From a virus, in the IMG/VR virus record IMGVR_UViG_3300042691_000525, positions 1-34,301 of that record: a DNA stretch of 34,301 bases, one strand, 5' to 3'. Positions 2,768 through 34,301 of the stretch are shown one piece after another. Both the position numbers and the translations under genes were made by a program. Each line of letters opens with the position of its first letter. Within the stretch, counting starts at the first letter, position 1. Below the pieces are notes generated by a model. It had not been told where the DNA came from. It worked only from the letters and a program-made list of their open reading frames with translations, and did no database searches.

Positions 2768-3046
2768 ATGGGAATGCAAACCGACGTAAAAGCTATTTCG
2801 TTGGCAGCCTCCGGGGCTGTCACTGACGCTCGCGTGCGCGTGCGCGGTATGGTGATCGAGCCCGGCGCATCTGCTGGAAGCGTCATCCTCAAAGACGGCG
2901 GCTCTGGCGGCACAACACTGTTCACCATCAACACAACTGCCAACGGCGAGACATTCAATGTCTTGATCCCGGCTGAAGGTGTGCTGTGCTTGACCAGTGC
3001 CTACGCCACTCTGTCAAACGCAAAAGTGACGGTGTTTTATGCCTGA
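2768..3046 (+). CDS. Small hypothetical virion-type protein
   Basis: The protein has 92 residues. Predicted beta strands (VRVRGMVIE, GSVILKDG, TLFTINTT, TFNVLIPAEG, KVTVFYA) suggest a small beta-sandwich. No catalytic residue or membrane segment is seen. ATG 2768 is chosen because AGGAG at 2756-2760 lies 7 bases upstream; a TTG at 2762 and an ATG at 2774 fit less well. Its last bases overlap the start of the glycosyltransferase gene by 8 bases, implying coupled translation. The function is unknown. Confidence 0.75.
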   Translation: MGMQTDVKAISLAASGAVTDARVRVRGMVIEPGASAGSVILKDGGSGGTTLFTINTTANGETFNVLIPAEGVLCLTSAYATLSNAKVTVFYA

Positions 3047-3788
3047 AGAAGCACGCCCGATGGACATTGCAGGTCGCAAACTGATGATTGCGATCCCTGC
3101 GTATGATGGCAAACTGAACATCAAGACCTCCTTTGCTTTGGCCGATCTCGTGGTCAAGGCATCGAAGTTTGGCGTTCAGGTTCAGCTATCGCACCTGTCG
3201 GGCTGCTCTCTTATCACCACGGCCCGGAACATCTTGGTAGCAAACTTCCTTGAGTCGGATTGCACGGACATGCTGTTTGTGGATGCCGACATCGTGGTGG
3301 ACGCTGAGTCTGTCTTGCGCCTACTGGCGCTGAGCACCGGCAAGGACATCACTGCTGGCATGTACACGCGCAGGGCAGAGGACCGCAAGTTCTTCTTGGA
3401 CATCTACATCGACCAGAACAACACCCTTGAGTTTGATGCTCACGGGATGCTGCGCGTTGAGAATGTGGCAACTGGCTTCATGATGATCCAGCGCCATGTA
3501 ATCGAGAAGATGATCCAGAACCACCCTGAGTGGAAGTATTTCAACGACGTCTACAACCGTGACGAGTTTTGCTTGTTTGACTTTGAGTTGTCGAACGGCC
3601 AGTACATTGGCGAGGACTACACCTTCTGCAAGCGTGCTCGCGCAGATGGGTTCACGGTCTTCATTGATCCAGAAATCACCCTGCCGCACGTCGGCTCTCA
3701 GGAGTATCACCGCAGCTTCAAAGAGTCTGTGCTGATGCCTTTGATCGAGCAGTACTGCACCCCAAAGCTGAAGGTGGCAAATGGCTAA
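3039..3788 (+). CDS. GT-A fold (family 2-like) glycosyltransferase
   Basis: The 249-residue protein has the architecture of a GT-A glycosyltransferase. It has an N-terminal nucleotide-sugar binding strand (MIAIPAYDGK, about residues 16-25) and an ARN segment (TTARNILVANF). The metal-binding DxD motif is in FVDADIVVD, near residue 82, followed by the acceptor-side VATGFMMIQR. A late acidic motif, GEDYTFCKRAR, resembles the ED motif of family 2 enzymes. Such enzymes move a sugar from an activated donor to a protein, glycan or modified base; the acceptor here is unknown. The gene overlaps both neighbours by 8 bases inside a structural operon, so glycosylation of a virion protein or of host envelope glycan are the likeliest roles. 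A downstream ATG at 3060 is a possible alternative start. Confidence 0.8.
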   Translation: MPEEARPMDIAGRKLMIAIPAYDGKLNIKTSFALADLVVKASKFGVQVQLSHLSGCSLITTARNILVANFLESDCTDMLFVDADIVVDAESVLRLLALSTGKDITAGMYTRRAEDRKFFLDIYIDQNNTLEFDAHGMLRVENVATGFMMIQRHVIEKMIQNHPEWKYFNDVYNRDEFCLFDFELSNGQYIGEDYTFCKRARADGFTVFIDPEITLPHVGSQEYHRSFKESVLMPLIEQYCTPKLKVANG

Positions 3789-8346: not shown

Positions 8347-9099
8347 GTGAAGCACGGCGTCATTTATGTAGCAACAAACACCGAAACGGGCAAGCAGTAT
8401 GTTGGCCTTACTACGGTTGGTGTTGCACGGCGCTGGGCAAATCATGTGACTTACTCTCGTTCGCCAAAAACACACTTTCACAGAGCAATTGCAAAATACG
8501 GAGCGTCCACATTTTGTGTGGAGGAGTATGCCAGCGCAGTCAAAAAAGAAGTCTTGGCGCAATTGGAAAAAGACATCATCTTGCAGCTTGCGCCAGCATA
8601 CAACCAGACCAACGGGGGCGAGGTTACTTTTGGCCGAAAGTACGATGACGCCACGAAAGAGCAGATTCGCTTAAGTAACATTGGGAAAAAACGAACTGCT
8701 GAGCAGCGGGAAAGAAATAGGCAGCAAAAGCTGGAGTGGTTTGCAAAAAACCCAGAGCAAAAAGCAGTTGCTGCAAAACAGTTAGCGGAAGCCCGATTGC
8801 TGATAGACGAAGAAAAACGCAAGAAGGCTGTTGGCGACTCCGCCAGAAATAGAGTATGGTCGGAAGAATCCAAGGCAAAGCTGAGTGCTGCGTGCATGGG
8901 TCGGCGTTATGGGCAGGAAATTATTTCCAGAATGGCCGAATCCAAAAAGAGAAAAATTCAATGCGACACAACAGGAGTTGTGTACTCTTGCAGAACTGAG
9001 GCTGCCAAACAAACCGGAATTTCTCAAAGATCAATCCAACGGGTTTGCGGCGGTGAGTACCCTTCCGTTAAGGGTCTAAAATTTTCTTACGTAGGATAA
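8347..9099 (+). CDS. GIY-YIG homing endonuclease with NUMOD domains
   Basis: The 250-residue protein starts at GTG 8347 after a strong AGGAGG (8337-8342). The catalytic domain shows GVIYVATN (GIY), YVGLTT (YIG), the Arg in ARRWANH, the Glu in LEKDIIL and Asn in YNQTNGG, all in the expected order. Two NUMOD3-type DNA-binding segments follow (YDDATKEQIRLSNIGKK; WSEESKAKLSAACMGRR). A NUMOD1-type helix-turn-helix (GVVYSCRTEAAKQTGISQRS) ends the protein. These enzymes cut phage DNA lacking the insert and spread their own gene. The gene is visibly more AT-rich than its neighbours, with an A-rich middle, and lies between complete genes, so it is a free-standing mobile gene and not part of an intron. 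Confidence 0.93.
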   Translation: MKHGVIYVATNTETGKQYVGLTTVGVARRWANHVTYSRSPKTHFHRAIAKYGASTFCVEEYASAVKKEVLAQLEKDIILQLAPAYNQTNGGEVTFGRKYDDATKEQIRLSNIGKKRTAEQRERNRQQKLEWFAKNPEQKAVAAKQLAEARLLIDEEKRKKAVGDSARNRVWSEESKAKLSAACMGRRYGQEIISRMAESKKRKIQCDTTGVVYSCRTEAAKQTGISQRSIQRVCGGEYPSVKGLKFSYVG

Positions 9100-20118: not shown

Positions 20119-23100
20119 ATGACGCCAGAAGTTATAGACATGCTGAAAAGACAGGGTCTTGTTGAGGATCGTGATCAGCCAATCATGCAATTTGATGATG
20201 GTGGCAGCGTTGGTGATTCTGGTGACGGCGGAACGGGTGCCGCTTCTTCCGCTACGGGTGACTCTTCGGGAGCGGGTGCTGCTGGTACTGGCAATGGAAC
20301 TGGAGACTCGGCCCCCGGCATTGGTGACGTTGGTGTTGGTGTTGGCGAGGTTGGGGCTGCTTCGCCGGGTGCTGGTGGGACTCCTGCGGGGCCGGGTGAT
20401 CCGGGCATCAGTGGCGACTCTGGGTTTTCCACCTCAGAAACAGACCCTGCGCAAACGGCGCTTGCCAGCTTACAGGCCGAGCTTGGTATTTCCCCTGCCG
20501 AAGCTGCAATGATGGGGCAGTCAAACGCAACAGGAAGCAACGTAGCCACCAACGGCATGACCATGGCCGAACTGTCTCTTATGGCGGCAAATGGTCTCGG
20601 GAATGCAGATATTTCGTCAAATCAAACCGTCAACCAAGCTCTTGCTTCCATGGCGGTTCACTCTGGGTTGAACAACAACATTGGACAAATCATGGGGGCC
20701 ATTGGAGGCCCCGCGATTGGCGCAATTGCCACTGCCGCAAACGCTATTGCACAAGGCCACTCTGTCTCATCTGTTGTGGGACAGATAGCGGCCTCCATCG
20801 TTGGCACTGCGTTGTCGAATGCAACTGGTGTAGCCATCAGCGCCAATACGGTAAGCGCAATTGCCAACGGCCAAATCGGTCAGGCAGCAATGGGGTTGGC
20901 AATCGGTCAGGTTGCGCAAGCTACTGGCTTGAGTGTTAATACAGTAACCGCAGCGTTGAGTGGTAACTTGGGTGGGGCTGTTGCAAACGCCGTCACTGGC
21001 GCGGTTGTTGGCGCTGCTGCTCAGTCGATGTCTGCTGGGCCACTAGGGGGCATGGCGTTGGGGACCATGGCAAGCCTTAGCGGCATGCCAGCAAGTATTG
21101 CAAACTCAGTAAATCAAAGTGCGATTGGGCAGGCTGTCAACGGCGTAACAAGCTCACTTTCATCTGCGATTGCGTCTTCTGGGATTGGTGTTTCAGGAAA
21201 TGCGTCCGCAGGAATCAGCACACCAGCAGGTGCGGCTGCAATTGCCGATGCTGTCTCGCGTGCCGAGAATCCCCCTGAAAGGAAAGTTTTTGGAATAAGT
21301 CTTGGAACAAGCACACCAAAATCACAAAGCCAATTGTTGATGGAGGCGGTAAAAAACGGAAAACTACCCGCCGCCGCAGAAAATGTTCCGCAGGCTCCTG
21401 TCGCGCCATCCAACAAGAAGAGCTACTGGGATGGCCTGTACTCTGACTTGGGCTCGGAATTCAGCAAACCACCAGAGCGCCCAGCAAACAACATCCCTGC
21501 CGAGACAAAAGAAAACCAAGCAACAGCCATGGCTTTGCTTGACGCCGGAAAAGAATACGAGCGTCTGTTCGGCAGTCTGACCCCGAGTGCCGCTGAGGCA
21601 ATTGTCTCGTCCACCGACCCATTGAAATACGTTGACAGCCTCTACACATCAGAGTCGGAGGCAAAAAATATATGGGATGACGCAGGCCTTGGAGAGTCGG
21701 CCACTGAACAGCAATTGCGACAGATAATTGGGCTACCCGAAACCAAGGCTGGCGAATTAACAACCAAGCTAAAAGACTCCGTATCAACTTTGAGCGAAAG
21801 CCAAAAACAAGAAGCTCTTAGCTTGGTTGGCTCTGGCAAGCTAACCATTGAAGACGCCGCAGACAATAGGCCAATTGACTGGGCGTATGAAAATGATTTG
21901 GGTGAAATTGTCATTACGGGTAAAAAAGACCCCGGATGGGAACACTCGAGAGATGACAGCGGTTACACGCTCATGTGGAACAAGGACAAGGGCCTTATCC
22001 AGCTTTATGACGAAAACGACGAGCTCATCAAAAGCTTAACCGACCAGTTCAAATATGACAAAAACGGCAATGTCGTTGGGCGGGGCTTGGATTACTACCT
22101 GTCTGCTGCGTCGGACAGCATCATGCGGTCCTCTTCCCAGACTGCCTCACTGCTTGCCGATGTCTTGCCAGCCATGGCCGCAAAGGCGGTAGGGAACGAA
22201 GATTACTTCAAGAAGCAAATGGCCGAAGCTCAGGCCACAATGAAGCAGATCAACATAAAGTACCCTGCTCGTGTTGCGTCGTACAAAAACGTCAACGACC
22301 TAAGCAGTGCTGCCACCTACGTTTTGGAATCCGTAATGGAGGGCGTGGTGACAACTGCGCCTTCTTTGCTCATGGGTGGGGCTGCTGGCGTGGCTGCTCG
22401 CGCTTCGGCAAAAGCGGCAATGGACGCAGCCATCAAAAAGGAATTGGCAGTACAAGCATCCAAAGGAGTTTTTGGGGCTGAAGCAATTGCAGCGGCGCAA
22501 GCTGCTGCAAGCACTGCCGGTTTGGCGGTGGCTGCAAAATTTACGACACCAGCCATCTTGGCTGCAAGCGCCTCACAGAACGTCCCTGAAGTTTTCAAGA
22601 ACGTCTATGACGCAAAAAGCGGCAAGGTGGATTTGAAGGACTTGGCAATATCAACCGTCGTTGGCGGGTTTAATGCGGCGCTTGACTCCGTTCTTCCGTC
22701 GGCCATCGTAGACCGATTAAATTTGTCGAAGATTCCGGTCGAGCAGGTGATTGGGGCTTGGTATAAAAATGCCGCCAAAGAGGCTGGAAGCGCTTTTGTA
22801 AAAGAAGGCGGGACCGAAATTCTCCAAGAGATGAGCAGCGCTGCGGCTGAATCTTTTCTTGCGGAAAACAAAGACTTCTTCACCAAGCAAAATCTGGACA
22901 GGTTTATTGATGCCGGTTTGAAGGGTGGCCTTGGCGGGTCCGCAGTTTCTACCGCTTTTGTGCTTGGCAAAGACGCAAAAGGCGCACTCAGTGGGGACGC
23001 CATTCGGCAGCAGGGTTTGGACGAAACAACGCCAGCGGAGTACTTGGCCGCAAGCAAAATGTTTGCCGACTCTGGATTCAAGGCCAGTGCCGCCGACATT

Positions 23101-25464
23101 TCTGCCGTGACTGGCGGAAAGGCTGAGCTGCTAAACCCGGCGTTGGCTTCAGAAATCCAAAAATACATGGACCCCCGTGTGGTTGCGGAGGATGAGGTTC
23201 GGCAGGCGCTTATTGATATTGGGTACGTCAACCCAACAAAGCAAGAGATTGATTCGTTTGTTGGACAAAAAGACGAGGTATCAACCTTAAAAGCACTGGA
23301 GGCGCAATACGACCCGCTGGCTACCACTGCGGAAGAGGCCGCGCAAATGATGCGCGACTTGGGGTACACCAACCTCACCGCCGACGAAGCCAAATCCCTT
23401 GCTGGAAAAATTAAAGAGGCGGACGCAAAGAAAAAGATCGAAGACTACATTGCGCCCCGCCAAGTGACACGCGCAGAAGCTGAGCAGTTTTTCAAAGACG
23501 TTGGATACAAGCCAAACAAAGAAGAGCTGGATCAGTTTGTGCGCCAAGGCGCAAACATCAAGCAGGACGCCGTTAAGTCCGAAGTTGGAACGTATGCAAA
23601 CGCACGCACGGTGACAGAGCAGGAAGCCAAAGACGCTTACGCTGCGCTTGGCCTGAAAAATCCCACAAAGGCTGACATTGACAAGTTGGTTGGTCAGTAC
23701 GACCAGACTGGCTTGACTGGCAAGGCCACAGAGAACTTGGATGCCGCACGGTACAACTCCATCATTGACCAGCTTGGCTCCATTACTAACGTCACTCCGG
23801 CAGATGTAACGACTGCGATCTCTGACTACATGAAGGCCAATCCCGGACTGTCAAAGACCGATGTGGAAACCGCCATATCCACCTACATGAAGGCCAATCC
23901 CGGTCTGACCAAGACCGATCTGAGCACCGCCATCTCTACGGCGACGAAGGACTTCGCCACCAAGAAGGACATTGAGAAGGCGATCTCAAACATCAAGTTC
24001 CCAGCAGGCATCACCAAAGAGGATGTCACCAAGTCCATCACGGATTACATGACGGCCAACCCCGGCCTGTCCGCAGCAGACGTCACAAAGTCCATCACCG
24101 ACTACATGACGGCAAATCCCGGCCTTACCCCAGCGGACTTGGATACAGCCATCTCCGCTGCCACCAAAGACTTGGCGACGACGGAGCAGGTTGGTGCTGT
24201 GCAAACGGATGTCGATGCTCTGGAGAAGCTGATTGGCTCTCCCGGTGGGGCAGATGCCGAGGCTACCGGCATCATCGGTCAGCTTGAGGCCATGGGTCTG
24301 ACGGACACTCAAATCTTGGGGGTGATTGGCAGCCCAGCCACCAAAACCACTCCTGCAACAGGCTTGTACAAAGCAGCCGACGATGCGGCAGCGCGAGGTG
24401 AGGATGCTGCTGCGTCTGTTCAAAAAGAATTGACGGGCCTTGTCGGTGCTCCCTCTGTCAAGGATGACCCAGCAACACTGAACATCAATGAGGCGAAAGA
24501 AGCGACTGGAATCTACAAGACGCTGGAGTCTTCACAAAAAGAAACCACTGGCGCAATTGACACGCTGTCCAAGGACGTACAAGACAAGTACAACGCACTC
24601 ACAGAGGGTCAAAAGGACCTTGCTGACGCCATGGCGGATATGGGTTTGGACTTTGCGTCAGCCATTGACTTGGCCGCTAAGCAGACGCAAGAGCAAATCA
24701 CTGGCCTTGGCGAACAGGTAGATGCTCGAATTGATGAGTTGGTGAAGCAGGGTGATACCTACCAAGAGGCCACGCAGAAAGCTATCGGCGAGCTCAACAC
24801 CCAGAACCAGCAGCTTCAGGGCTTGGTTGGCACTCAGGGACGGCAAGCCACTCAAGCGGACATCGACGCGCTCAACCAGATGCTCGGCGGTCAGCGGAGC
24901 ATGGACCTGACCTACGACGTGACTGGCGACAAGCAAATCACTCAGGCAGACATCGACTTCCTGACTCAGGTGGTCAGCGGTGTAAACACAGACTGGCGTG
25001 CTCCGGTCGGCTCCGCCTTTGGGCCCACTGGTCTGTACGGCCAACTGGCAACCAACGAAGCTCAGCGTCAGGCGGACCTGAAGGCGCAACTGGCCCGGGA
25101 AGAAGAGGCCAAAAAAGCAGAAGCCGAGCGCCAAAGACTGGCAGCAGAAGAAGCTGCTCGTCAGGGCAAGATCGCAAATGTGCGCGGGGTTGTGGCGCAG
25201 GGGCAGCAAAGTGCCCAATCCTTGGCCCAGCAATTGCCGCAGGCATTCCAGCAATCCCAGCAGGTCAGCACCCCGCTATATGGCGCAATGGAATACTTCG
25301 ATCCGTTCGGTGACCCGTTCGGAGACCCATTCGGGACGCAGAAGCTCAAAATGGCTTCTTCGACAAACCCAGCAGAAAAAACTAAAATCGCCTCAGGTGG
25401 GTACATTGATGACCTGCTGGCGGAGAACATCACGGCAGATGACCTGCTGAACCTCTTACGCTAA
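20119..25464 (+). CDS. Giant internal-virion-type protein
   Basis: The product has 1781 residues. Residues 1-130 are Gly/Ser/Pro-rich and disordered, opening with MTPEVIDMLKRQGL and QFDDGGS. Residues 150-420 are Ala/Gly-rich and hydrophobic and could insert into membranes. Residues 735-950 form a membrane-type module with TAPSLLMGGAAGVAARA and KEGGTEILQEM, shared with the gene at 29051. Residues 1000-1210 hold helical repeats with a [DA][LIV]G[YL]-type core (LIDIGYVNPTKQEIDSFVGQ). Residues 1224-1360 hold YMKANPGL/YMTANPGL repeats. Near 1576-1615 are two TQADID segments, one with a complete calcium loop. The C-terminus has three DPFG repeats. It is likely ejected with DNA or part of the tail core, by size, membrane features and position. 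Confidence 0.75.
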   Translation: MTPEVIDMLKRQGLVEDRDQPIMQFDDGGSVGDSGDGGTGAASSATGDSSGAGAAGTGNGTGDSAPGIGDVGVGVGEVGAASPGAGGTPAGPGDPGISGDSGFSTSETDPAQTALASLQAELGISPAEAAMMGQSNATGSNVATNGMTMAELSLMAANGLGNADISSNQTVNQALASMAVHSGLNNNIGQIMGAIGGPAIGAIATAANAIAQGHSVSSVVGQIAASIVGTALSNATGVAISANTVSAIANGQIGQAAMGLAIGQVAQATGLSVNTVTAALSGNLGGAVANAVTGAVVGAAAQSMSAGPLGGMALGTMASLSGMPASIANSVNQSAIGQAVNGVTSSLSSAIASSGIGVSGNASAGISTPAGAAAIADAVSRAENPPERKVFGISLGTSTPKSQSQLLMEAVKNGKLPAAAENVPQAPVAPSNKKSYWDGLYSDLGSEFSKPPERPANNIPAETKENQATAMALLDAGKEYERLFGSLTPSAAEAIVSSTDPLKYVDSLYTSESEAKNIWDDAGLGESATEQQLRQIIGLPETKAGELTTKLKDSVSTLSESQKQEALSLVGSGKLTIEDAADNRPIDWAYENDLGEIVITGKKDPGWEHSRDDSGYTLMWNKDKGLIQLYDENDELIKSLTDQFKYDKNGNVVGRGLDYYLSAASDSIMRSSSQTASLLADVLPAMAAKAVGNEDYFKKQMAEAQATMKQINIKYPARVASYKNVNDLSSAATYVLESVMEGVVTTAPSLLMGGAAGVAARASAKAAMDAAIKKELAVQASKGVFGAEAIAAAQAAASTAGLAVAAKFTTPAILAASASQNVPEVFKNVYDAKSGKVDLKDLAISTVVGGFNAALDSVLPSAIVDRLNLSKIPVEQVIGAWYKNAAKEAGSAFVKEGGTEILQEMSSAAAESFLAENKDFFTKQNLDRFIDAGLKGGLGGSAVSTAFVLGKDAKGALSGDAIRQQGLDETTPAEYLAASKMFADSGFKASAADISAVTGGKAELLNPALASEIQKYMDPRVVAEDEVRQALIDIGYVNPTKQEIDSFVGQKDEVSTLKALEAQYDPLATTAEEAAQMMRDLGYTNLTADEAKSLAGKIKEADAKKKIEDYIAPRQVTRAEAEQFFKDVGYKPNKEELDQFVRQGANIKQDAVKSEVGTYANARTVTEQEAKDAYAALGLKNPTKADIDKLVGQYDQTGLTGKATENLDAARYNSIIDQLGSITNVTPADVTTAISDYMKANPGLSKTDVETAISTYMKANPGLTKTDLSTAISTATKDFATKKDIEKAISNIKFPAGITKEDVTKSITDYMTANPGLSAADVTKSITDYMTANPGLTPADLDTAISAATKDLATTEQVGAVQTDVDALEKLIGSPGGADAEATGIIGQLEAMGLTDTQILGVIGSPATKTTPATGLYKAADDAAARGEDAAASVQKELTGLVGAPSVKDDPATLNINEAKEATGIYKTLESSQKETTGAIDTLSKDVQDKYNALTEGQKDLADAMADMGLDFASAIDLAAKQTQEQITGLGEQVDARIDELVKQGDTYQEATQKAIGELNTQNQQLQGLVGTQGRQATQADIDALNQMLGGQRSMDLTYDVTGDKQITQADIDFLTQVVSGVNTDWRAPVGSAFGPTGLYGQLATNEAQRQADLKAQLAREEEAKKAEAERQRLAAEEAARQGKIANVRGVVAQGQQSAQSLAQQLPQAFQQSQQVSTPLYGAMEYFDPFGDPFGDPFGTQKLKMASSTNPAEKTKIASGGYIDDLLAENITADDLLNLLR
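23815..24190 (+). repeat. In-frame tandem repeats (YM[KT]ANPGL units)
   Basis: Four copies of a unit coding for [IS][ST]xYM[KT]ANPGL, each followed by a partner helix, lie at about 23820, 23880, 24045 and 24105. Two of them are followed by a longer near-copy (TAIS[TA]ATKD[FL]AT). The DNA of the pairs is closely similar, which suggests recent duplication. Confidence 0.75.
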
Positions 25465-25475
25465 AGGAAATCAAG

Positions 25476-27332
25476 ATGGCTTACACGGACGAATTGGGCA
25501 ACATCTACGAAGATGATTCTTTGAGTGGTGACTCGTATGATTTTTGGGAGTCAATTGGTATTGATCCAGACACCACAATGGAAAACTGGAGCTCTCCGTC
25601 CAATGACCAAATTGAAGATGCCCTGACCGGCAATCCCCAGTGGCTAAATTTGGTTGAGAGGTTTGGCAGCAAAGCGCTGAGCATGCTGAAAGACAAAGAC
25701 GGCAAATACGATTTGGCGAAACTTGGCGCTCTTGGCATTGGCGCGTACAGTCTAATGAACCAAGACAAGCAAGGCGGCTACAACAAGCCAGTCCCCAAGA
25801 TGGACATGGTGCGTGAGCAGATTCAGTACAACGATCCCAACCGACGTCCCGGCGAGGCTGGCCGTCAGTACTTCACAGACCCCCGTTACGCCGCTCAAGG
25901 TGACGCAGAGGCTTTGGCTGCCGCAAAGACTGCTTCTGCTGGTCAGGCCTCCGGCATTCAGGCTGCATACCAGCCTCGTCCCGCTCCAGCCCCCAACCCT
26001 TACGCTGGCAAGATGAACTTGGCCTACAGCCGTCCAACACAAGCCCCCGCTCAAGCTGGTGGCCTTCCTGAAATTCCAACACAACTCACCGCACGAGGCG
26101 GTATTCCTATGGCACAAGGCGGTATCGCAGACGCAGGGCGTTACCTGCGTGGCAAGACGGACGGCATGGCCGACGAGATTGAGACCAGCATTGATGAAGA
26201 GCAGCCAGCTCTTCTCAGCCATGGGGAGTTTGTAATCCCTGCGGATGTGGTGTCTCACCTCGGTAACGGCAACTCCGAGGCTGGAGCTGAGAAGCTCTAC
26301 GAAATGATGGACCGCATTCGCGTGGCTCGCACCGGAACCAAAGAACAGGGCAAAGAGATTGACCCTGACAAGTTCATTGCAGCCGCTGGCGGCTTGGCTG
26401 CCGCCTACGCTGGTGGTGGCGAAGTCCAAAGATTCAACACTGGCGGCACACCCAGCACCGCAAACCCAACAGCAACAGGCGCTGGCGGCGTACCTCAAGA
26501 TGTTTCCCGAACATCCACCCTCTCTCCTTGGGTTGGCGACTACGTGACCAACGCCTTGGGGCAGGGCGCTGCTCTGGCAAACGCCCCGTACCAAGCCTAC
26601 CAAGGCCCACTGACCGCTGGAGCCTCGGGCCTTCAGCAGCAAGCCTTTGCTGGCGCAGGTGAGATGGCTCAAGCCGGATACACCCCCACGCAGTTCACTG
26701 GCGGCTTCAATGCCCAGACCGCCCAGCAGTACATGAACCCGTACCTGCAAGCCTCACTGGACCCGCAGTTGCGCGAATTGCAACGGTCTTCTGACATTGC
26801 CCGTCTGGCTGATGCTGGACGACTGACAAAAGCCGGTGCTTACGGCGGTAGCCGTCAGGCCATCATGGAATCCGAAGGTCGCCGCAATCTGTTGGACAAA
26901 CAGCAAGATGTTTTGGGTCAGGGCTACAAGACTGCCTACGACACAGGTCTGGGCCAGTTCAACAAAGAACGCGAGGCACAAGAGGCATCGCGTCAGTTTG
27001 GCGCAAACTTTGGCCTCAAGTCCATCGATCAGTTGGCGAATTTGGGCGCTCAAGAGCGTGGCATTACATCCGAAGGTATCGCAGCAGACAAGGCGCAGTT
27101 CGAGGAGCAGCGTGACTTTGCTTACGGTATGCCAAAGTACCAGTTGGGCTTGTTGTCTGGCCTGCCAATCGGTGCAAATACTACTGCTGTGGATCAAGAT
27201 GCCATGAGCAGGCTGCAATCGCAATTTGCTGGTTTGGCTACCAACTACAAAACGATTGAGGGAGCCCTCAAAGACCTTGGTCAAACTCCTACCGCTCCCG
27301 CCGCTCCTACCACTCCTGCCACTACAAAATAA
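25476..27332 (+). CDS. Internal-virion-type protein with conserved GEFV module
   Basis: The protein has 618 residues. Residues 1-100 are acidic and helical (YTDELGNIYEDDSLSG), then Pro/Ala-rich and disordered to 200. Residues 206-310 form a compact module with ARGGIPMAQGGIAD, then EEQPALLSHGEFVIPADVVS and HLGNGNSEAGAEKLYEMMDR. I recognise this module from environmental podovirus virion proteins of unknown function. Residues 345-610 are helical (LQQQAFAGAGEMAQAG; KAGAYGGSRQAIMESEGRR). AAAGGAAA precedes ATG 25476. It lies between two giant proteins in what looks like the DNA-ejection block, so an internal-core role is inferred. Confidence 0.7.
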   Translation: MAYTDELGNIYEDDSLSGDSYDFWESIGIDPDTTMENWSSPSNDQIEDALTGNPQWLNLVERFGSKALSMLKDKDGKYDLAKLGALGIGAYSLMNQDKQGGYNKPVPKMDMVREQIQYNDPNRRPGEAGRQYFTDPRYAAQGDAEALAAAKTASAGQASGIQAAYQPRPAPAPNPYAGKMNLAYSRPTQAPAQAGGLPEIPTQLTARGGIPMAQGGIADAGRYLRGKTDGMADEIETSIDEEQPALLSHGEFVIPADVVSHLGNGNSEAGAEKLYEMMDRIRVARTGTKEQGKEIDPDKFIAAAGGLAAAYAGGGEVQRFNTGGTPSTANPTATGAGGVPQDVSRTSTLSPWVGDYVTNALGQGAALANAPYQAYQGPLTAGASGLQQQAFAGAGEMAQAGYTPTQFTGGFNAQTAQQYMNPYLQASLDPQLRELQRSSDIARLADAGRLTKAGAYGGSRQAIMESEGRRNLLDKQQDVLGQGYKTAYDTGLGQFNKEREAQEASRQFGANFGLKSIDQLANLGAQERGITSEGIAADKAQFEEQRDFAYGMPKYQLGLLSGLPIGANTTAVDQDAMSRLQSQFAGLATNYKTIEGALKDLGQTPTAPAAPTTPATTK

Positions 27333-27341
27333 GGTCGGAAC

Positions 27342-29051
27342 ATGAACCTCGTTAAAGCACAAGCTCTGGCAAACGATTTGCCAATCACAGAGTTGAAGAA
27401 GTACGCCGATGGTTTTGATCCACGGATCATTCCACCTTGGATTGCGACCGGTACGTTGCAGGCCAAGATGGATTTAAACAAGCGCATGCAGAACATGATG
27501 GGTGGCGCTCAGGGTGAGCAGCCCAGCGTCAAAGAGCAGATCGAGCAGAAGGCTGGCTTGATGGCTGCAAACAACATGCAGCAGCAGCAACAGCAGCAAC
27601 AGATGGCTATGGCGCAGCGTCCCGGACCAGTTCCCGCTGGCATTCCCCAGCCCGAAGATCAACCCGAAGCGCCAGCAATGATGGCTCGCGGAGGTTTAAC
27701 TTCCGTGCCTGTGCGCTTTGCGTTTAAACCCGGTGGCATCGTCGGCTACAGCAATGGCGGGGACACCATGGGCACAGCAAGTGCCGAGGAGCAAGAGTTG
27801 TCAAGTCAGGCTGCTGAACTTGGCCGCGACAAAGAGAGAAGGGAAAGAGCAATACAGGAGCTTGAGCGCAAAGTGGAATTTCTGACTCGCGCTGGAGCGC
27901 CTCAAGCCGAGGCGGCACGCGCACAACTTGAGCAACTCAAGACATCAGGAGGCATGCCAGCACCTGAAGCCCCCGCTCGACAACTGCCACCACAGCGCCC
28001 AGCCTCCGTTTCTGAGGCTCAAGCCACAGCCATGGCAGGACCGCAAGCAGCCGTTCCTCCTCGCCGGGTTGAGCGACCAGCGCCTCGGCCTGAGGCTGCA
28101 CCTCGTCCTGCTGCACAACCAGCACAAACAGGCCTACCTGCCGCAGCAAGCCGCAGCCCTTACTTTGCGCAAGCAGACGCAGCCTTGAATGAGCCCAACG
28201 TCAAGCCAACGCCTCAGAGCATCATTGCTGAGCAAAACGCTCTGTCTCCTCAAGCCATGCTGGAGGAGAACATGCGCAAGCGCTATGAAGAGCGCAAGGC
28301 CCGTGCAGATCAGGAACGTGCAACCTTTGAGAAGACGCGTCCATCCGGCTTGGATGACTTGATCCGTGTCTGGGGTCAGGCCGCTCAATACAAGGGAGGC
28401 ACTGGCTTGGCTCCCGCTTACACAGCCAACCAAGACCGCAAACGCGCAGAAGAGATGGCTCTTGAGAAGCGCATGAACGAGCTCTACACAGCCGCAGACA
28501 CCCAAGAATACGAGGGTGCCAAGGAGATTTATGGTGCTCGAGCCAAGTCCATGGACGCTGCCAACCGCTCTTACCAAGAGCGCCTGAAGTCCCGTGCAGA
28601 GACCTTGGCTCAGCTTGCGAATGTGGATGAGCGCCGCATTCAGTCCGAGCTGGACCGCTTGAGCCAAATGGAGATTGCCAAGATTCGTGCGGCAGATGCT
28701 GGCAGCGGTGACATGAAGTACCTTGCGCAGTATCTGGCACTCAAGGCAGAAGGAAAGCCAAAAGAGGCTGCCGCCCTGCTCGAAAGCTTCTCACTCTTTA
28801 AACGTGGAGAGCCAAAGCCAGACCCGCTTGAGTCCGCCATGGCTAAGCAATATGCTGAGCAACTTGGCTCTGCGCTACAACTGCCACCGGGTAAGCTTCG
28901 TGATGAACGGATGGCTGGCCTCAAGCTTCTGGAGCAAAAAATCAAGGGCGGCGGCGGAGGTTCGTTTACAGTTACGGCTGGCGGCAAGACATACGACTTC
29001 CCGACAAAAGAAGCCGCAGACAAATTTAAGGCAGAAGCCGGAGTGCAATGA
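27342..29051 (+). CDS. Internal-virion-type helical protein with GG motifs
   Basis: The protein has 569 residues. The start (MNLVKAQALANDLPITELKK, then YADGFDPRIIPPW) forms a small helical domain. A Gln tract follows near residues 80-88. The segment ARGGLTSVPVRFAFKPGGIV plus GYSNGGD resembles the xGG elements of other proteins here. Residues 160-215 are a coiled coil (QAAELGRDKERRERAIQEL). A long Pro/Ala/Arg-rich linker reaches residue 270. The C-terminal 300 residues are helical and charged, ending in a small AGGKTYDFPTKEAADKFKAE module. The stop overlaps the giant gene's start. An internal virion role is inferred. Confidence 0.7.
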   Translation: MNLVKAQALANDLPITELKKYADGFDPRIIPPWIATGTLQAKMDLNKRMQNMMGGAQGEQPSVKEQIEQKAGLMAANNMQQQQQQQQMAMAQRPGPVPAGIPQPEDQPEAPAMMARGGLTSVPVRFAFKPGGIVGYSNGGDTMGTASAEEQELSSQAAELGRDKERRERAIQELERKVEFLTRAGAPQAEAARAQLEQLKTSGGMPAPEAPARQLPPQRPASVSEAQATAMAGPQAAVPPRRVERPAPRPEAAPRPAAQPAQTGLPAAASRSPYFAQADAALNEPNVKPTPQSIIAEQNALSPQAMLEENMRKRYEERKARADQERATFEKTRPSGLDDLIRVWGQAAQYKGGTGLAPAYTANQDRKRAEEMALEKRMNELYTAADTQEYEGAKEIYGARAKSMDAANRSYQERLKSRAETLAQLANVDERRIQSELDRLSQMEIAKIRAADAGSGDMKYLAQYLALKAEGKPKEAAALLESFSLFKRGEPKPDPLESAMAKQYAEQLGSALQLPPGKLRDERMAGLKLLEQKIKGGGGGSFTVTAGGKTYDFPTKEAADKFKAEAGVQ

Positions 29052-32000
29052 TGAACCTTGATGAGCTGGCAAAAAAATACGGCGGAAGCCAAGTTCAACC
29101 CGGCGCATCAAAATTTGATGATCTGGCCCGGAAATACGGCGGCTCTGCAATCGAGTCGGACGTCATGCCAACAGCCCCAGCCAAAGACGCTGGGTTCTCC
29201 CTTGGAGACATAGCCAAGTCCTTTGGTGTTGGTGCTGCGGGAAGCGCCAAGGCGCTCACCGATGTGGCTGGCGCTGACAACTTCATCTCCTCCAAGCTTG
29301 GCAAGGGCGTGGAGAGTCTTCAGCAGAGCATGACCCCAGAGCGTCAAGCTGAGATGCAGCGTCAGGCCGCCCGGATGAAGGCTGCCGAAGAGTCTGGCAG
29401 CACATGGGAAGAGATCAAGGCTGGTGCTTTAAACGTTGCTGAAGCTCCTCTCCAGTCTGCCGCGCAGGCCATTGGCTCGTTTGTTCCGTACCTGCCCACC
29501 TTGTTTGCAGCCCCTGCGGCTGCTGCCATGCGTTTAACCGCTGGCTCTCAAGCTGCCATCCGGTCCGTTGCTCAACAAGCCCCCAAGGTTATTGGTACCG
29601 CCCAAGGTGCTGGCGCTGTCAAAGGCTCCATCTATGACGGCGTGCTGAAGGCCGAGATTGAGGCTGGCGTAGACCCAGAGGTTGCCAAGCAAAAGGCTGA
29701 CGCAGCCCAGTCGTACTTCGGTGGAAACTTTGACCAGATCGCCCTCGGTGCCGGTCTTGGTTATGTTGCTGGCTCCAAGGGTGTTGAAGAGTTGTTCTCC
29801 AAGGCTGGCCGAGCAGGAGCAGCCCCCGGCATGGCTCGCAGGGTTGGCGAATCAGTTCTCAAGGAATCTGTCCCAGAGGCTGCTCAAGGCGGTCAAGAGA
29901 AGGTCGCTGAGAACGTTGCATTGCAGCGTGCGGGGTACGACGTAGACACGTTTAAAGGCGTGGCAGGTGCTGCGACCCAAGAAGCGCTCACAGGCGCTCT
30001 GGGCGCTGCCCCCATTGCCGCGATGGTGCGTCCTGAGGCCAAGCCTCCTGAGGCTGTGGATGCCTTTGAGAAGGAGAAGGAAGAGTTCCGCAAAGGCTTC
30101 GGTCAAGCCGAGCCTGTCGCGCCTTCTGCTGAAGCCCCAGAGAAAGCTCCCGTAGAGCCCCCAACAGAGTTCCCCGGTGGCTACACAGCCACCCGCAGAG
30201 AAATCTCCCGCCGAGACGTACCTGAGTCGTTTGGCATCTTTGCCGAAGGTTCAGACAAGCCTCTGACCTCCGTTGCCTCCCAAGAAGAGGTGGAGAGGAA
30301 GATTCAGTCCCTGACCGAGATTCGTCAGGAGGAGCAAGCCCGTCTCTTGGCTGAGTCTGACAAGATCAGCAAGTCCATTCAGGATGAGCAGCGTAAGCTT
30401 GAGGTCATGGAGGCCACGGGCCAGACTGACACCGATGAGTACGTCCAAGCCAAGGCCCTTCTCTCCCAAAAGGAGGAGGAGGCCGCCTTAAAGATTCAGG
30501 ACATCAACGACAAGATTGCCAGCTACTCCGCCCCCTTGAGCTTTACCCCCATCGGTTCCCGCACTGACGTGCAGAACGAGTTCACCGTTAACCGTGGTGC
30601 TGAGCCAATTGGGGTATTCCCAACTCTGGAGCAGGCCGAAGCCACGCTGCGCGAGCGCGATCCTCAGGTGTTTAAACAAGCTGAAGTTGCTGCCCGCACG
30701 CAGGAGCTTGAGTCAAAGCTCAAGCCTATGCTGGCCAAGTTCAACCTTGGCGATGTGGGTGTAAACGTTGTTGAGCAGATCAAGAACAACGCGGGTGGTG
30801 CTTACCTCGACAAGCTGATTCAGGTCTCTCTGGATGAGGCCAACCCCATCCAAACCATGCGCCATGAGTCCCTGCATGCGCTGAAGGACTTGGAGTTCTT
30901 CACCCCGCAGCAATGGAAGGCCCTGACTGAGCAAGCCAACAAGAGGTGGATCAAGGAGTACCTCCAAGACCAGACCTCCGAGATCGAGGTGGACGGCAAG
31001 CCTGTGACGATGAGCCGTCTGGATGCCTACAAGAAGATTGGCCTGACTCAAGAAGAGATCATTGAAGAAGCCATCGCTGATGCGTTTGGTGCTTACGACC
31101 GTGGAGCCACACCGCCTCCCGGCATGATTGCTGCGCTGTTCAAGAAGCTGAAGAACTTCTTCATGAACTTTGGTCAAGCCCTGCGTGGTGCTGGCTTTGA
31201 GTCTGCGGATGATGTGTTCCAGCGCGTTGAGCGTGGTGAGTTGAAGTCCCGCAAGCCAAAAGAGAAGACTGCTCCGAAGGAAGAGCCAAAAGCCAAGCCA
31301 GAAGAGAAGGCCGAAGAGGAAAAGGAACCGAAGGCCAAACCCTCTACCGAGAAAAAAGAAAAGCCAAAGTACAGCCTTGCTGGCGAAGGCATACCCATGT
31401 CAACCCGCAAGTTGATGGAGAAGCAGACTGCTGTTTCGCAGCAAGAGCTTGGTTTAAACACTGATGCGGTTCGCGGTCGCTTTAACAACGTGCGAGACAT
31501 TGCCAAGGCGCTTAACCAGCAGACACTTGACCAGCTTGGTGCAATGGACCGCAACAAACTGACTCAAGACGAGTCAACTCGGATTGCTGAAGCCATCGCC
31601 GATGAGGTGGCGCATCAGTTGCAGACATCAACCAAGACTGGCACTGGTTTGGGTTGGTATTCCAACAACTACCCCAATGCTGTTAAGCGTCTTGCCAAGC
31701 GATTCCCGGAGCTTGGAACAAACAAGCATGCCCGTTCGGTGTTCTCGGCTTTGGTTGCCGTTACATCCAACGGGGAGCGAGTTGCAAAGAACATCGACAA
31801 CGCCATCAAGCTGTATGGCAAGCTTCGTAACGGCAAGCGATTGGTTGCCATGGGCAATCGTCGTCCAACCGCGCTCCAAAACAACTTGAAAGTCATCCAA
31901 GACTTGTTGAGCAAGTATGGTCAAGACTTTGAGAAGGTGTTGCTCAAAGAAATTACCGTCAAAGAAATGAACGCCCGTTTACGAGAAATGGGCGAAGAGA

Positions 32001-34301
32001 CGGATGGCAGCTATCTCGCCAACACTGTTGTGCCAGCGGCAGCGGTTTACTTTGGACCTAAGCTTGGCGCGTTCTACGCCAACCTTTCCGGCTCAGAGGG
32101 CTACCTGACCATGGATTTGTGGTGGACTCGTTCCATCAATCGCATGCGCGGCTTGCTCATCCCCAAGGCCACAGAAGCCTCCATCAACAAGTTCCGAGAC
32201 ATGATGGAACAGCCCGATGCCACTCGGGATGAAGTTACTGCCGCCACCATTCCTTTGCGAAACAAGTATGAGGAGTACGGTTGGACAACCGAGCTTGAGC
32301 ATTTGGCGGGGGCGAAGGAGCCATCCAAAAAGGCCGCAAAAGAAAATTGGTTTAAAGCTGCCGAAGAGAAGGCTGGTGATGCCTACGAGCAGTTGCTGTT
32401 TGAACACAACCTTGAGAAGATGGCAAACACCATCTACAAGAACGAGTTTGAGATGCTGGAGGAGGCTCCGTTTACAGCCACCGACAGAAAGTTCATGTAC
32501 GACGCAGCACGCAAGGCTCAAGCTTTGCTGCGTGGAGAAGGAATCAACCTCAGTCTGGCTGACATTCAGGCCGCCCTTTGGTACTATGAGAAACGCCTTT
32601 ATGAAAAACTGAGCGGGAGAAAAGCAGATGACATCGGATACGAAGAAGCAATCATCGCCCAAGCCAATCAGGGTTCTGGACGAGCAAGACCAAGTGTGGT
32701 CTTCGATCAAAAACCTGACGGCAGGGATGAGCCCGGAACGGAGATCGCAGTTTCTGATGAAGCTCGTGGACTCGATGGAGAAAAGTTCTCCCTCCGCAAA
32801 GGAGTAGTCGCAGAGGTAGCGCCGAACCCTGACCACATCTCGGCAGAGAAGTGGAGGCAGATGACGCCTTCGGAGCGTCTAAACGCAACCAAGGCCGTTG
32901 CCAACAGGGTGGTGTCCTCTGTGTTCTCTGAGCTCGAACTCAAGGGTTACAAGTACGAGTTCTCTACGGGCACCTACGAGGGCGAGGTCAACCCCAACAT
33001 CATTGTTCAAGCCCCAGACGAGGCCACAGAGCAAGAGCTTGACGAGCTTGCCCGGGTGCTTGGTTATGTGCTCGACCAAAAGGCAATGGTTGCTTTTGAT
33101 GAGGACAACAAGAGCTCTGGCGATCAGGCTGGGTTTGTGAAGGTTGTTGTCCCAGAGGGCATGACTGCGGATCAATTAAGCGAGTTGCGTCAACACATTG
33201 CGCAGAACGTCCCACAGGCGGATGGTGATACGTTGCGTGATGGGGCCTTGCTGTACGGCAACTTCTCTGCATACAACGACAACGTTGACACCCTTACCGA
33301 TGCTCAATACCATGAGGCCATCATCGATGCTGTCGAATCATTCCCTTACGATGGAAAGATTCGTGTCTCCGACCCGGAGACATTCCACAGTTCACTCGTT
33401 TGGCCCGACACAAGAAGCGACTACTTAAAGGAAACACGATATGGCGACAGTGGAAAGATTCAAGGAGAAGCCGGGGCAGATGTTCGGGGGCAAGGGAGTC
33501 GCCGTCTTCAGGCCATTTCCGAAGAAGCAATCTCGCTCAGAGACAAATGGATTGACGCCAGAGGAGCTGCTCGCCTCGGAGGTCGAGAGCGCGGTAATGC
33601 GGTTGACTTCGGCCAGCCAACAGAAGAATACGGAACGCCAACGCGAGGATCGGTAAGCGCTGTCGGCGTCCACTTCAGCAAAGAGAGACGCCCAACACTC
33701 ATCTCCGAGTTCCACGGCACCGGTCTGCGCGGAATGGAGAGTGAGCGTTTAAACGAAAAAGAAAACTCGGACATTCGTGGCCGAATTTATTTCTACGTTG
33801 ACAACGGCAAGGGAGTCCGGCCCGAGGCTGGTGTTGGCGGCACTCCTCACGTCATCAGGTTGAAAAATCTGTACGACACCAAAACAGACCCTCTTGAAAT
33901 CATCAAGAACGCCAAGGGCGACTCGTCCGCAGAACGCGCAAGCAATTGGGAGCGCAATGTTAAGAGGGCTGGCTTTGATGGCTACTTGGTCAAAAACCAA
34001 GCCGCATCACAAGACTACGCAGTTTTGATTGGCAAGCATTCCGTGAAGACTGGGAAGTTCAGTCTCCGCACCAGCTTCCCCTCCGCAAAAGAGGCGGAAG
34101 ATGCCGCATATGACAAGGCCCCTCCATCGACCAAGGAGTTCAAACTCTTCTTTGGTGGCAGCCAGATCATGGACGAGGGTCGTCCGCAAGTCATGTACCA
34201 CGGCTCCGCATCCGAGTTCACCACGTTCCTTGAGAGCAAGCCAATCTTCGTCAGCCCCGATCCTGACTTTGCTGAGCAGTTTGCAGAGGACCGCGCAAAG
34301 G
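29051..34301 (+). CDS. Giant polyvalent protein: HExxH zincin and ADP-ribosyltransferase (3' partial)
   Basis: The frame is open from ATG 29051 (or 29048) to the window's end, at least 1750 residues. Residues 1-35 duplicate DELAKKYGGS/DDLARKYGGS. Residues 130-325 are a membrane-type module; 400-500 coiled coil. Residues 550-730 form a zincin with HESLH at 605-609 and a candidate third ligand in EEAIADAF (E672/E673). It ends in the ESADDVFQRVERGEL pattern known from phage polyvalent proteins. A Lys/Pro/Glu linker (733-772) leads to helical regions containing GLGWYSNNYPNA and DLWWTRSINRMRG. An alpha/beta part follows from about 1250, then a GVHFSK...FHGTGL domain from 1536. The start of an ART-PolyVal ADP-ribosyltransferase follows (GGSQIMDEGRPQVMYHGS, Y1716-G1718). 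K[FY]SL occurs at 773, 1245 and 1669. It probably enters the host with the DNA and acts on host proteins; the substrates are unknown. Confidence 0.82.
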   Translation, partial: MNLDELAKKYGGSQVQPGASKFDDLARKYGGSAIESDVMPTAPAKDAGFSLGDIAKSFGVGAAGSAKALTDVAGADNFISSKLGKGVESLQQSMTPERQAEMQRQAARMKAAEESGSTWEEIKAGALNVAEAPLQSAAQAIGSFVPYLPTLFAAPAAAAMRLTAGSQAAIRSVAQQAPKVIGTAQGAGAVKGSIYDGVLKAEIEAGVDPEVAKQKADAAQSYFGGNFDQIALGAGLGYVAGSKGVEELFSKAGRAGAAPGMARRVGESVLKESVPEAAQGGQEKVAENVALQRAGYDVDTFKGVAGAATQEALTGALGAAPIAAMVRPEAKPPEAVDAFEKEKEEFRKGFGQAEPVAPSAEAPEKAPVEPPTEFPGGYTATRREISRRDVPESFGIFAEGSDKPLTSVASQEEVERKIQSLTEIRQEEQARLLAESDKISKSIQDEQRKLEVMEATGQTDTDEYVQAKALLSQKEEEAALKIQDINDKIASYSAPLSFTPIGSRTDVQNEFTVNRGAEPIGVFPTLEQAEATLRERDPQVFKQAEVAARTQELESKLKPMLAKFNLGDVGVNVVEQIKNNAGGAYLDKLIQVSLDEANPIQTMRHESLHALKDLEFFTPQQWKALTEQANKRWIKEYLQDQTSEIEVDGKPVTMSRLDAYKKIGLTQEEIIEEAIADAFGAYDRGATPPPGMIAALFKKLKNFFMNFGQALRGAGFESADDVFQRVERGELKSRKPKEKTAPKEEPKAKPEEKAEEEKEPKAKPSTEKKEKPKYSLAGEGIPMSTRKLMEKQTAVSQQELGLNTDAVRGRFNNVRDIAKALNQQTLDQLGAMDRNKLTQDESTRIAEAIADEVAHQLQTSTKTGTGLGWYSNNYPNAVKRLAKRFPELGTNKHARSVFSALVAVTSNGERVAKNIDNAIKLYGKLRNGKRLVAMGNRRPTALQNNLKVIQDLLSKYGQDFEKVLLKEITVKEMNARLREMGEETDGSYLANTVVPAAAVYFGPKLGAFYANLSGSEGYLTMDLWWTRSINRMRGLLIPKATEASINKFRDMMEQPDATRDEVTAATIPLRNKYEEYGWTTELEHLAGAKEPSKKAAKENWFKAAEEKAGDAYEQLLFEHNLEKMANTIYKNEFEMLEEAPFTATDRKFMYDAARKAQALLRGEGINLSLADIQAALWYYEKRLYEKLSGRKADDIGYEEAIIAQANQGSGRARPSVVFDQKPDGRDEPGTEIAVSDEARGLDGEKFSLRKGVVAEVAPNPDHISAEKWRQMTPSERLNATKAVANRVVSSVFSELELKGYKYEFSTGTYEGEVNPNIIVQAPDEATEQELDELARVLGYVLDQKAMVAFDEDNKSSGDQAGFVKVVVPEGMTADQLSELRQHIAQNVPQADGDTLRDGALLYGNFSAYNDNVDTLTDAQYHEAIIDAVESFPYDGKIRVSDPETFHSSLVWPDTRSDYLKETRYGDSGKIQGEAGADVRGQGSRRLQAISEEAISLRDKWIDARGAARLGGRERGNAVDFGQPTEEYGTPTRGSVSAVGVHFSKERRPTLISEFHGTGLRGMESERLNEKENSDIRGRIYFYVDNGKGVRPEAGVGGTPHVIRLKNLYDTKTDPLEIIKNAKGDSSAERASNWERNVKRAGFDGYLVKNQAASQDYAVLIGKHSVKTGKFSLRTSFPSAKEAEDAAYDKAPPSTKEFKLFFGGSQIMDEGRPQVMYHGSASEFTTFLESKPIFVSPDPDFAEQFAEDRAK

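Follow-up and report, generated by a model that had tools for sequence, protein, structure and literature searches.

The window analysed here is an entire IMG/VR record of 34,301 bases from a virus. Its 3′ part is occupied by one open frame, which starts at an ATG at 29048 or at a second in-frame ATG at 29051 and runs for 1750 aa to the contig end at 34301 without a stop, as described in the initial annotation. The residue numbers given there for HESLH (605–609), EEAIAD (672–677) and MYHGS (1715–1719) all matched the translated frame. Extension past 34301, which had been proposed as a check, was provided by an identical longer contig (L002), in which the gene reaches 2449 aa and the ART-PolyVal domain is complete. 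Complete relatives of the giant protein have 2501–3644 aa. About 60% of the protein lies in the window; the full length expected is about 2,900–3,000 aa. The features of the gene are listed in Table 1.

Table 1. Modules and border tags predicted in the giant protein gene of the window.
Feature	Residues	Position	Strand	Remarks
Giant polyvalent protein gene		29048..34301	+	3′ truncated by contig end; alternative ATG 29051
N-terminal membrane/ejection module (predicted)	1–370	29051..30160	+	Homologous to N4 virion RNA polymerase N-terminal domain, by profile comparison
Beta / long helical hairpin linker module	371–540	30161..30670	+	AlphaFold2 model m732ceb12ea62
Predicted zincin-like metallopeptidase	541–740	30671..31270	+	HESLH 30863–30877, EEAIAD 31064–31081
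Border tag KYSL	773–776	31367..31378	+	Between zincin and glycosylase-like module
HhH-GPD-like / DUF7178-superfamily module	783–1240	31397..32770	+	K1004 codon 32060–32062, D1022 codon 32114–32116
Border tag KFSL	1245–1248	32783..32794	+	Predicted disordered
Module X	1250–1520	32798..33610	+	Swapped for other modules in relatives
Possible divergent second ART	1525–1670	33623..34060	+	hhalign to ART profile
Border tag KFSL	1669–1672	34055..34066	+	Between two modules
ART-PolyVal with short N-terminal extension, truncated	1676–1750	34076..34301	+	MYHGS at 1715; PF18760 1.8e-15 in L002

Head genes (phrog_371 and others) and tail-fibre genes lie upstream of the giant gene, and the late-gene context is alike in named phages. 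The two genes just upstream, previously described as internal virion proteins, had no match in Pfam or PHROG, and that description is plausible by position alone. Three long ORFs before the giant gene (20119–29051) share glycine-glycine repeats (ARGGI, GGEVQRFNTGG, GGIVGYSNGG) with no family match, a possible border-like element in virion proteins. A homing endonuclease gene (8347–9099; phrog_314, 7.4e-27) is inserted within the structural gene region. Among the head genes, the ORF at 3039–3788 matched phrog_1574 and had weak glycosyltransferase matches.

By its domain content, the giant protein belongs to the phage polyvalent proteins, which were described as a class in 2017 (Iyer et al., PMC5512222). 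This identity had been proposed before and was supported by Pfam matches to ART-PolyVal and LPD38, which score far above the cut-off in complete relatives. Unrelated catalytic domains in one chain were found as ART-PolyVal and the conserved RHExxH zincin motif, and the glycosylase-like module would be an additional one. The truncated ART copy of the window scored E 0.0051 and 18 bits against PF18760 (curated cut-off, 31.2 bits), and the whole domain in L002 scored E 1.8e-15 and 58.4 bits. Because the completed domain scores this well in an identical contig, the ART-PolyVal domain predicted to start at MYHGS can be taken as real. The residues 1525–1670 aligned to the ART profile in hhalign (probability 77%, E 2e-5) with the C-terminal strands alone, and may be a second, divergent ART. 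No match was found in Pfam or PHROG for module X, in agreement with the earlier statement that 1250–1500 held no nameable domain. The variable slot is occupied in L005 (residues about 1500–1700) and L012 (about 1850–2050) by a swapped module in which the pattern RAxHDxxxH...FG..GE..A...H is conserved; this module is widespread in the slot and possibly metal-binding. Pfam matches to FRB_dom and HBS1_N were rejected; they were below the cut-off and lay in helical regions.

In the zincin region, RHExxHAL was invariant in 13 of the 13 aligned relatives. EEA(I/V)(A/S)DAFG was kept in every relative copy reaching that position, with identity down to 35% in the region. An invariant HExxH and a downstream Glu ligand (in EEAxxDAFG), the pattern of zincins, were therefore both present. 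The region had no Pfam match. In the AlphaFold2 model (pLDDT 81, pTM 0.44), both motifs were on helices, and no zincin fold was among the Foldseek matches listed against the PDB. Because Foldseek did not recognise the fold, the predicted metallopeptidase rests on sequence motifs: the HESLH and EEAIAD motifs of the initial annotation are conserved in relatives, and the fold was not recovered by structure search. A second candidate zincin at L002 residue 1968 (GHEGRHR) was rejected by eye, its HExxH being inside a ParB/sulfiredoxin-like motif.

The residues 783–1240 were analysed as an alignment of 30 sequences (protein residue number = module number plus 782). Strictly invariant residues include G1002, P1003, K1004, D1022, W1024, R1027, N1030, and R1031. 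The spacing is the same as that of G118, K120, D138, R143, N146, and R147 in E. coli Nth (EndoIII). K1004 and D1022, a Lys in the hairpin and an Asp 18 residues on as in HhH-GPD proteins, correspond to Nth K120 and D138, the known catalytic residues of that enzyme. In hhalign, a ten-sequence Nth/MutY profile gave E 7e-4 with a probability of 26%; the alignment was colinear and covered the N-terminal helices, the hairpin, and the Asp helix. The score of 30.9 was above the maxima of 298 column shuffles (22.7) and 200 block shuffles (26.9). With just one or two Nth sequences the alignment fell short of significance, and the ten-sequence profile was needed to reach it. DUF7178 was matched in 19 of the 30 members, in the window copy around the K/D region. 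In other relatives the same slot holds DUF7178 itself or a third subfamily, and the DUF7178 set (L005 and three relatives) had no match to the Nth profile.

At an E-value limit of 10, PF00730 matched nothing in the window contig, and it matched 14 of 14 control genomes. The structure model of the module was confident and all-helical (pLDDT 86); no HhH-GPD fold was among the Foldseek matches listed against the PDB, in a 3Di search, which resolves all-helical domains poorly. In a viral structure library the model matched other polyvalent proteins confidently, and a 198-aa solo protein of Synechococcus phage S-CBP42 weakly (E 0.23; TM 0.71 on target). Nothing useful was found by PDB sequence searches or by an Nth search in viral contigs, and a literature search for DUF7178 found no paper. 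The module might be an all-helical DUF7178-superfamily domain with a structural or DNA-binding role and not a glycosylase. This alternative has a little under an even chance; it agrees with the PF00730 and PDB fold results and the hhalign probability of 26%, but it is opposed by the Nth-like spacing of the invariant K1004, D1022, R1027, N1030, and R1031 and by a profile alignment that beats all 498 shuffles. A glycosylase-type fold is slightly favoured. The results gave moderate support for a divergent HhH DNA glycosylase/lyase related to DUF7178, in a region (800–1240) previously left nameless.

The only genome match of the glycosylase-like module was a 2986-aa giant with one tag in an uncultured Burkholderiales MAG (L103, 5425–14385). 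Together with Limnohabitans phage DC33 (L017), which carries the HhH and second-ART modules but lacks the tag, it hints at Burkholderiales hosts. The GenBank record of DC33 is filed under Inoviridae and its gene content is tailed-phage-like, a probable misclassification.

The N-terminal 370 residues matched phrog_2206, the N4 virion RNA polymerase (vRNAP) PHROG, with E 1.6e-4 in the window and in 10 of 13 relatives (best 3.6e-10). The match spans PHROG positions 124–430 of 3406. Comparison with N4 gp50 by hhalign gave a probability of 93% and E 3.4e-7; its score was 61.6, and none of 100 shuffles scored above 21.8. Both profile comparisons make this module, earlier noted as membrane-type, a homologue of the N4 vRNAP N-terminal domain, which binds membranes. 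The N4 domain has predicted membrane helices at 224–278 and incorporates into membrane nanodiscs, and N4 vRNAP is ejected as beads on a string (PMC12633501). The C-terminal module of about 850 aa, which lies beyond the window end, carries LPD38 in complete relatives (Pfam, E 2.7e-37 to 6e-34). It was found in 51 phage records, including Vibrio, Bacillus, Pelagibacter, Escherichia, Planktothrix, and other phages; phages PTXU04 and Pondi carry it. In named phages it usually forms the C-terminus of a giant late protein, whose gene mostly follows directly on the structural genes, and it is common to giant late proteins of many short-tailed phages. Since the N-terminus is homologous to that of N4 vRNAP and the C-terminal module is that of giant late proteins of short-tailed phages, ejection is well supported at the level of homology. 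The N4 vRNAP homology makes it probable that the giant protein is packaged and injected.

Neither this C-terminal delivery module nor a repeated border tag appeared in the initial annotation. The tag [KR][FY]SL was found in L002 at residues 773, 1245, 1669, 1877, and 2044, each between two modules. With the broadened pattern [KR][FYL]S[LFI], 159 tags were counted in 50 giant ORFs, where 22.6 were expected and no more than 37 occurred in any of 200 shuffles. Six giants unused before held 18 tags against 3.5 expected. Other long ORFs of the same contigs had 3 tags in 44,791 aa. Scrambled control patterns gave about 0.5–1.8x, with the exception of one that overlaps the tag itself. Local alignments between giants break off where modules were swapped, and these breakpoints were compared with random positions. 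Alignment starts lay ≤5 aa from a tag in 107 of 821 cases (random mean 12.5, maximum 24) and alignment ends in 73 of 483 (random mean 7.7, maximum 17). Breakpoints were near a tag at about nine times the random frequency.

The order in the core relatives is N-terminal module, coil, zincin, tag, HhH-type module, tag, variable block, tag, ARTs (mostly tag-closed), optional ParB-like domain, tag, and C-terminus. The first tag is missing in L008, L011, and L012, and the border between module X and the possible second ART has none. Where modelled, tag-bearing linkers were predicted to be disordered (pLDDT 24–36). Codons of the tag are varied and its flanks are variable. A DNA repeat or recombination site was rejected because the codons differ. 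A tag common to all LPD38 giants was also rejected, on its absence in 14 giants of other clades.

The tag was found solely in proteins with the RHExxHAL zincin and was absent in the 14 giants with another zincin or none; it is therefore a candidate self-processing site. Common descent could also explain this association of tag and zincin. A word of four residues that recurs in the disordered linkers of almost all borders, in a chain with a protease close to its start, suggests a polyprotein-like design in which the tag would be the cut site. Thermolysin-type gluzincins favour Leu or Phe after the cut. Polyvalent zincins were proposed by Iyer et al. to process their own chains (PMC5512222), and no cleavage motif was found in the main text of that paper.

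The layout observed was an N4-vRNAP-like membrane module, zincin, DUF7178/HhH-like module, variable block, at least one ART, optional ParB-like domain, and LPD38. To this layout we add, as what we infer, packaging, ejection, cutting at the tag, a glycosylase activity, and the targets. The preferred reading, with a probability of about 0.5, is an ejected polyvalent protein whose zincin cuts it at the border tags and releases effectors. The giant protein would be packaged in the phage head, and the chain would pass into the host with the DNA like beads on a string. The N-terminal module would enter the inner membrane. The N-terminal zincin would cut the chain at [KR][FYL]S[LFI] tags in the disordered linkers, and the effectors would thereby come loose from the N-terminus, bound in the membrane, and from the C-terminal module. 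Targets of the ARTs may be host proteins or nucleic acids, and those of the glycosylase-like module may be DNA bases, either the host's or the phage's own. It is doubtful that the protein is a general self-cleaving polyprotein, in which a clade-specific zincin and the tag form a modular system that delivers and releases any tag-flanked effector in the host and one constant cargo is a new injected HhH-type glycosylase/lyase of the DUF7178 superfamily.

The untagged border between module X and the possible second ART counts against self-cutting. So does N4 vRNAP, which is packaged unprocessed despite its zincin, while P1 DdrB is cut (PMC5512222). A distant relative, gp25 of the E. coli phage PTXU04, was not identified in virion fingerprinting, in which some gel bands were analysed and gp7, gp10, gp11, and gp12 were identified (PMC6563267); this was also counted against an ejected, self-cutting protein.

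Nearly as likely as the cut-site reading is an ordinary ejected polyvalent protein that stays a single chain, with the tag as a flexible connector or docking motif kept at recombination borders. N4 vRNAP, the N-terminal homologue, works as a single chain in the form of beads on a string (PMC12633501; PMC5512222), and since ART modules end in the tag (DIRYSL), it could travel along with them. But the tag also occurs without a preceding ART (after the zincin, after the HhH module, and before the C-terminal module) with varied codons and flanks, and a plain connector has no need for four fixed residues. Cutting of the tag during assembly by a phage head-maturation protease, and not by the embedded zincin, is improbable: head genes such as phrog_371 lie upstream, and internal proteins of T4 and phiKZ-like phages are cut by such a protease, in the phiKZ type at a short motif, but no gene for a separate protease could be recognised in the window, and the other long ORFs of these contigs show no enrichment of the tag.

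The results place the giant protein in a known class. Its ejection module is well supported, its border tag is new and robust, and support for a new catalytic module is moderate. Host-attacking enzymes are strung like beads in a giant protein that is probably injected, and its built-in protease may split the chain into separate weapons. Processing of polyvalent proteins, with its timing and place, has been a matter of conjecture since 2017. A defined and statistically strong border tag tied to one zincin clade makes processing directly testable. The tag would also be an objective way to divide polyvalent proteins into modules and to find new effectors. If the glycosylase reading is true, a base-excision enzyme enters the host from the phage as infection begins, a mirror of host glycosylase defences.

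The giant protein was compared with known systems. It shares with Endonuclease III and HhH-GPD proteins (PF00730) the GxK-x17-D-x4-R-x2-NR signature and a colinear weak profile match, whereas the module has no Pfam or fold match and no Fe-S cysteine loop was seen. Like the polyvalent proteins of Iyer et al. (PMC5512222), it has a zincin, an HYD-type ART, a ParB-like domain, and LPD38 together in a single large protein from a late gene close to virion genes; the main text of that paper, in contrast, has no description of a border tag ("linker" not found) or of an HhH glycosylase-like module ("glycosylase" absent). As to the P1 antirestriction proteins DarB/DdrB, three N-terminal members weakly match the DarB-like PHROG, and DdrB carries a zincin and is processed (PMC5512222), but no methylase-helicase was seen in the giant protein and the architecture is otherwise unlike. 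PTXU04 gp25 (Xuquatrovirus) has the C-terminal module at 28% identity, but neither the RHExxHAL zincin nor tags. It is essential for its phage, and its complementation was blocked, expression being toxic or interfering with infection (PMC11879866). N4 gp50 (Schitoviridae) differs in its RNA polymerase, which was not found in the giant protein and is replaced by effectors, in the C-terminal and not N-terminal position of its zincin, and in the border tag, which is not described for N4. The two proteins share the homologous N-terminal membrane module, a length of about 3,000–3,500 aa, and an HExxH (at N4 residue 2228), and N4 gp50 is encoded after its two partner ejection genes.
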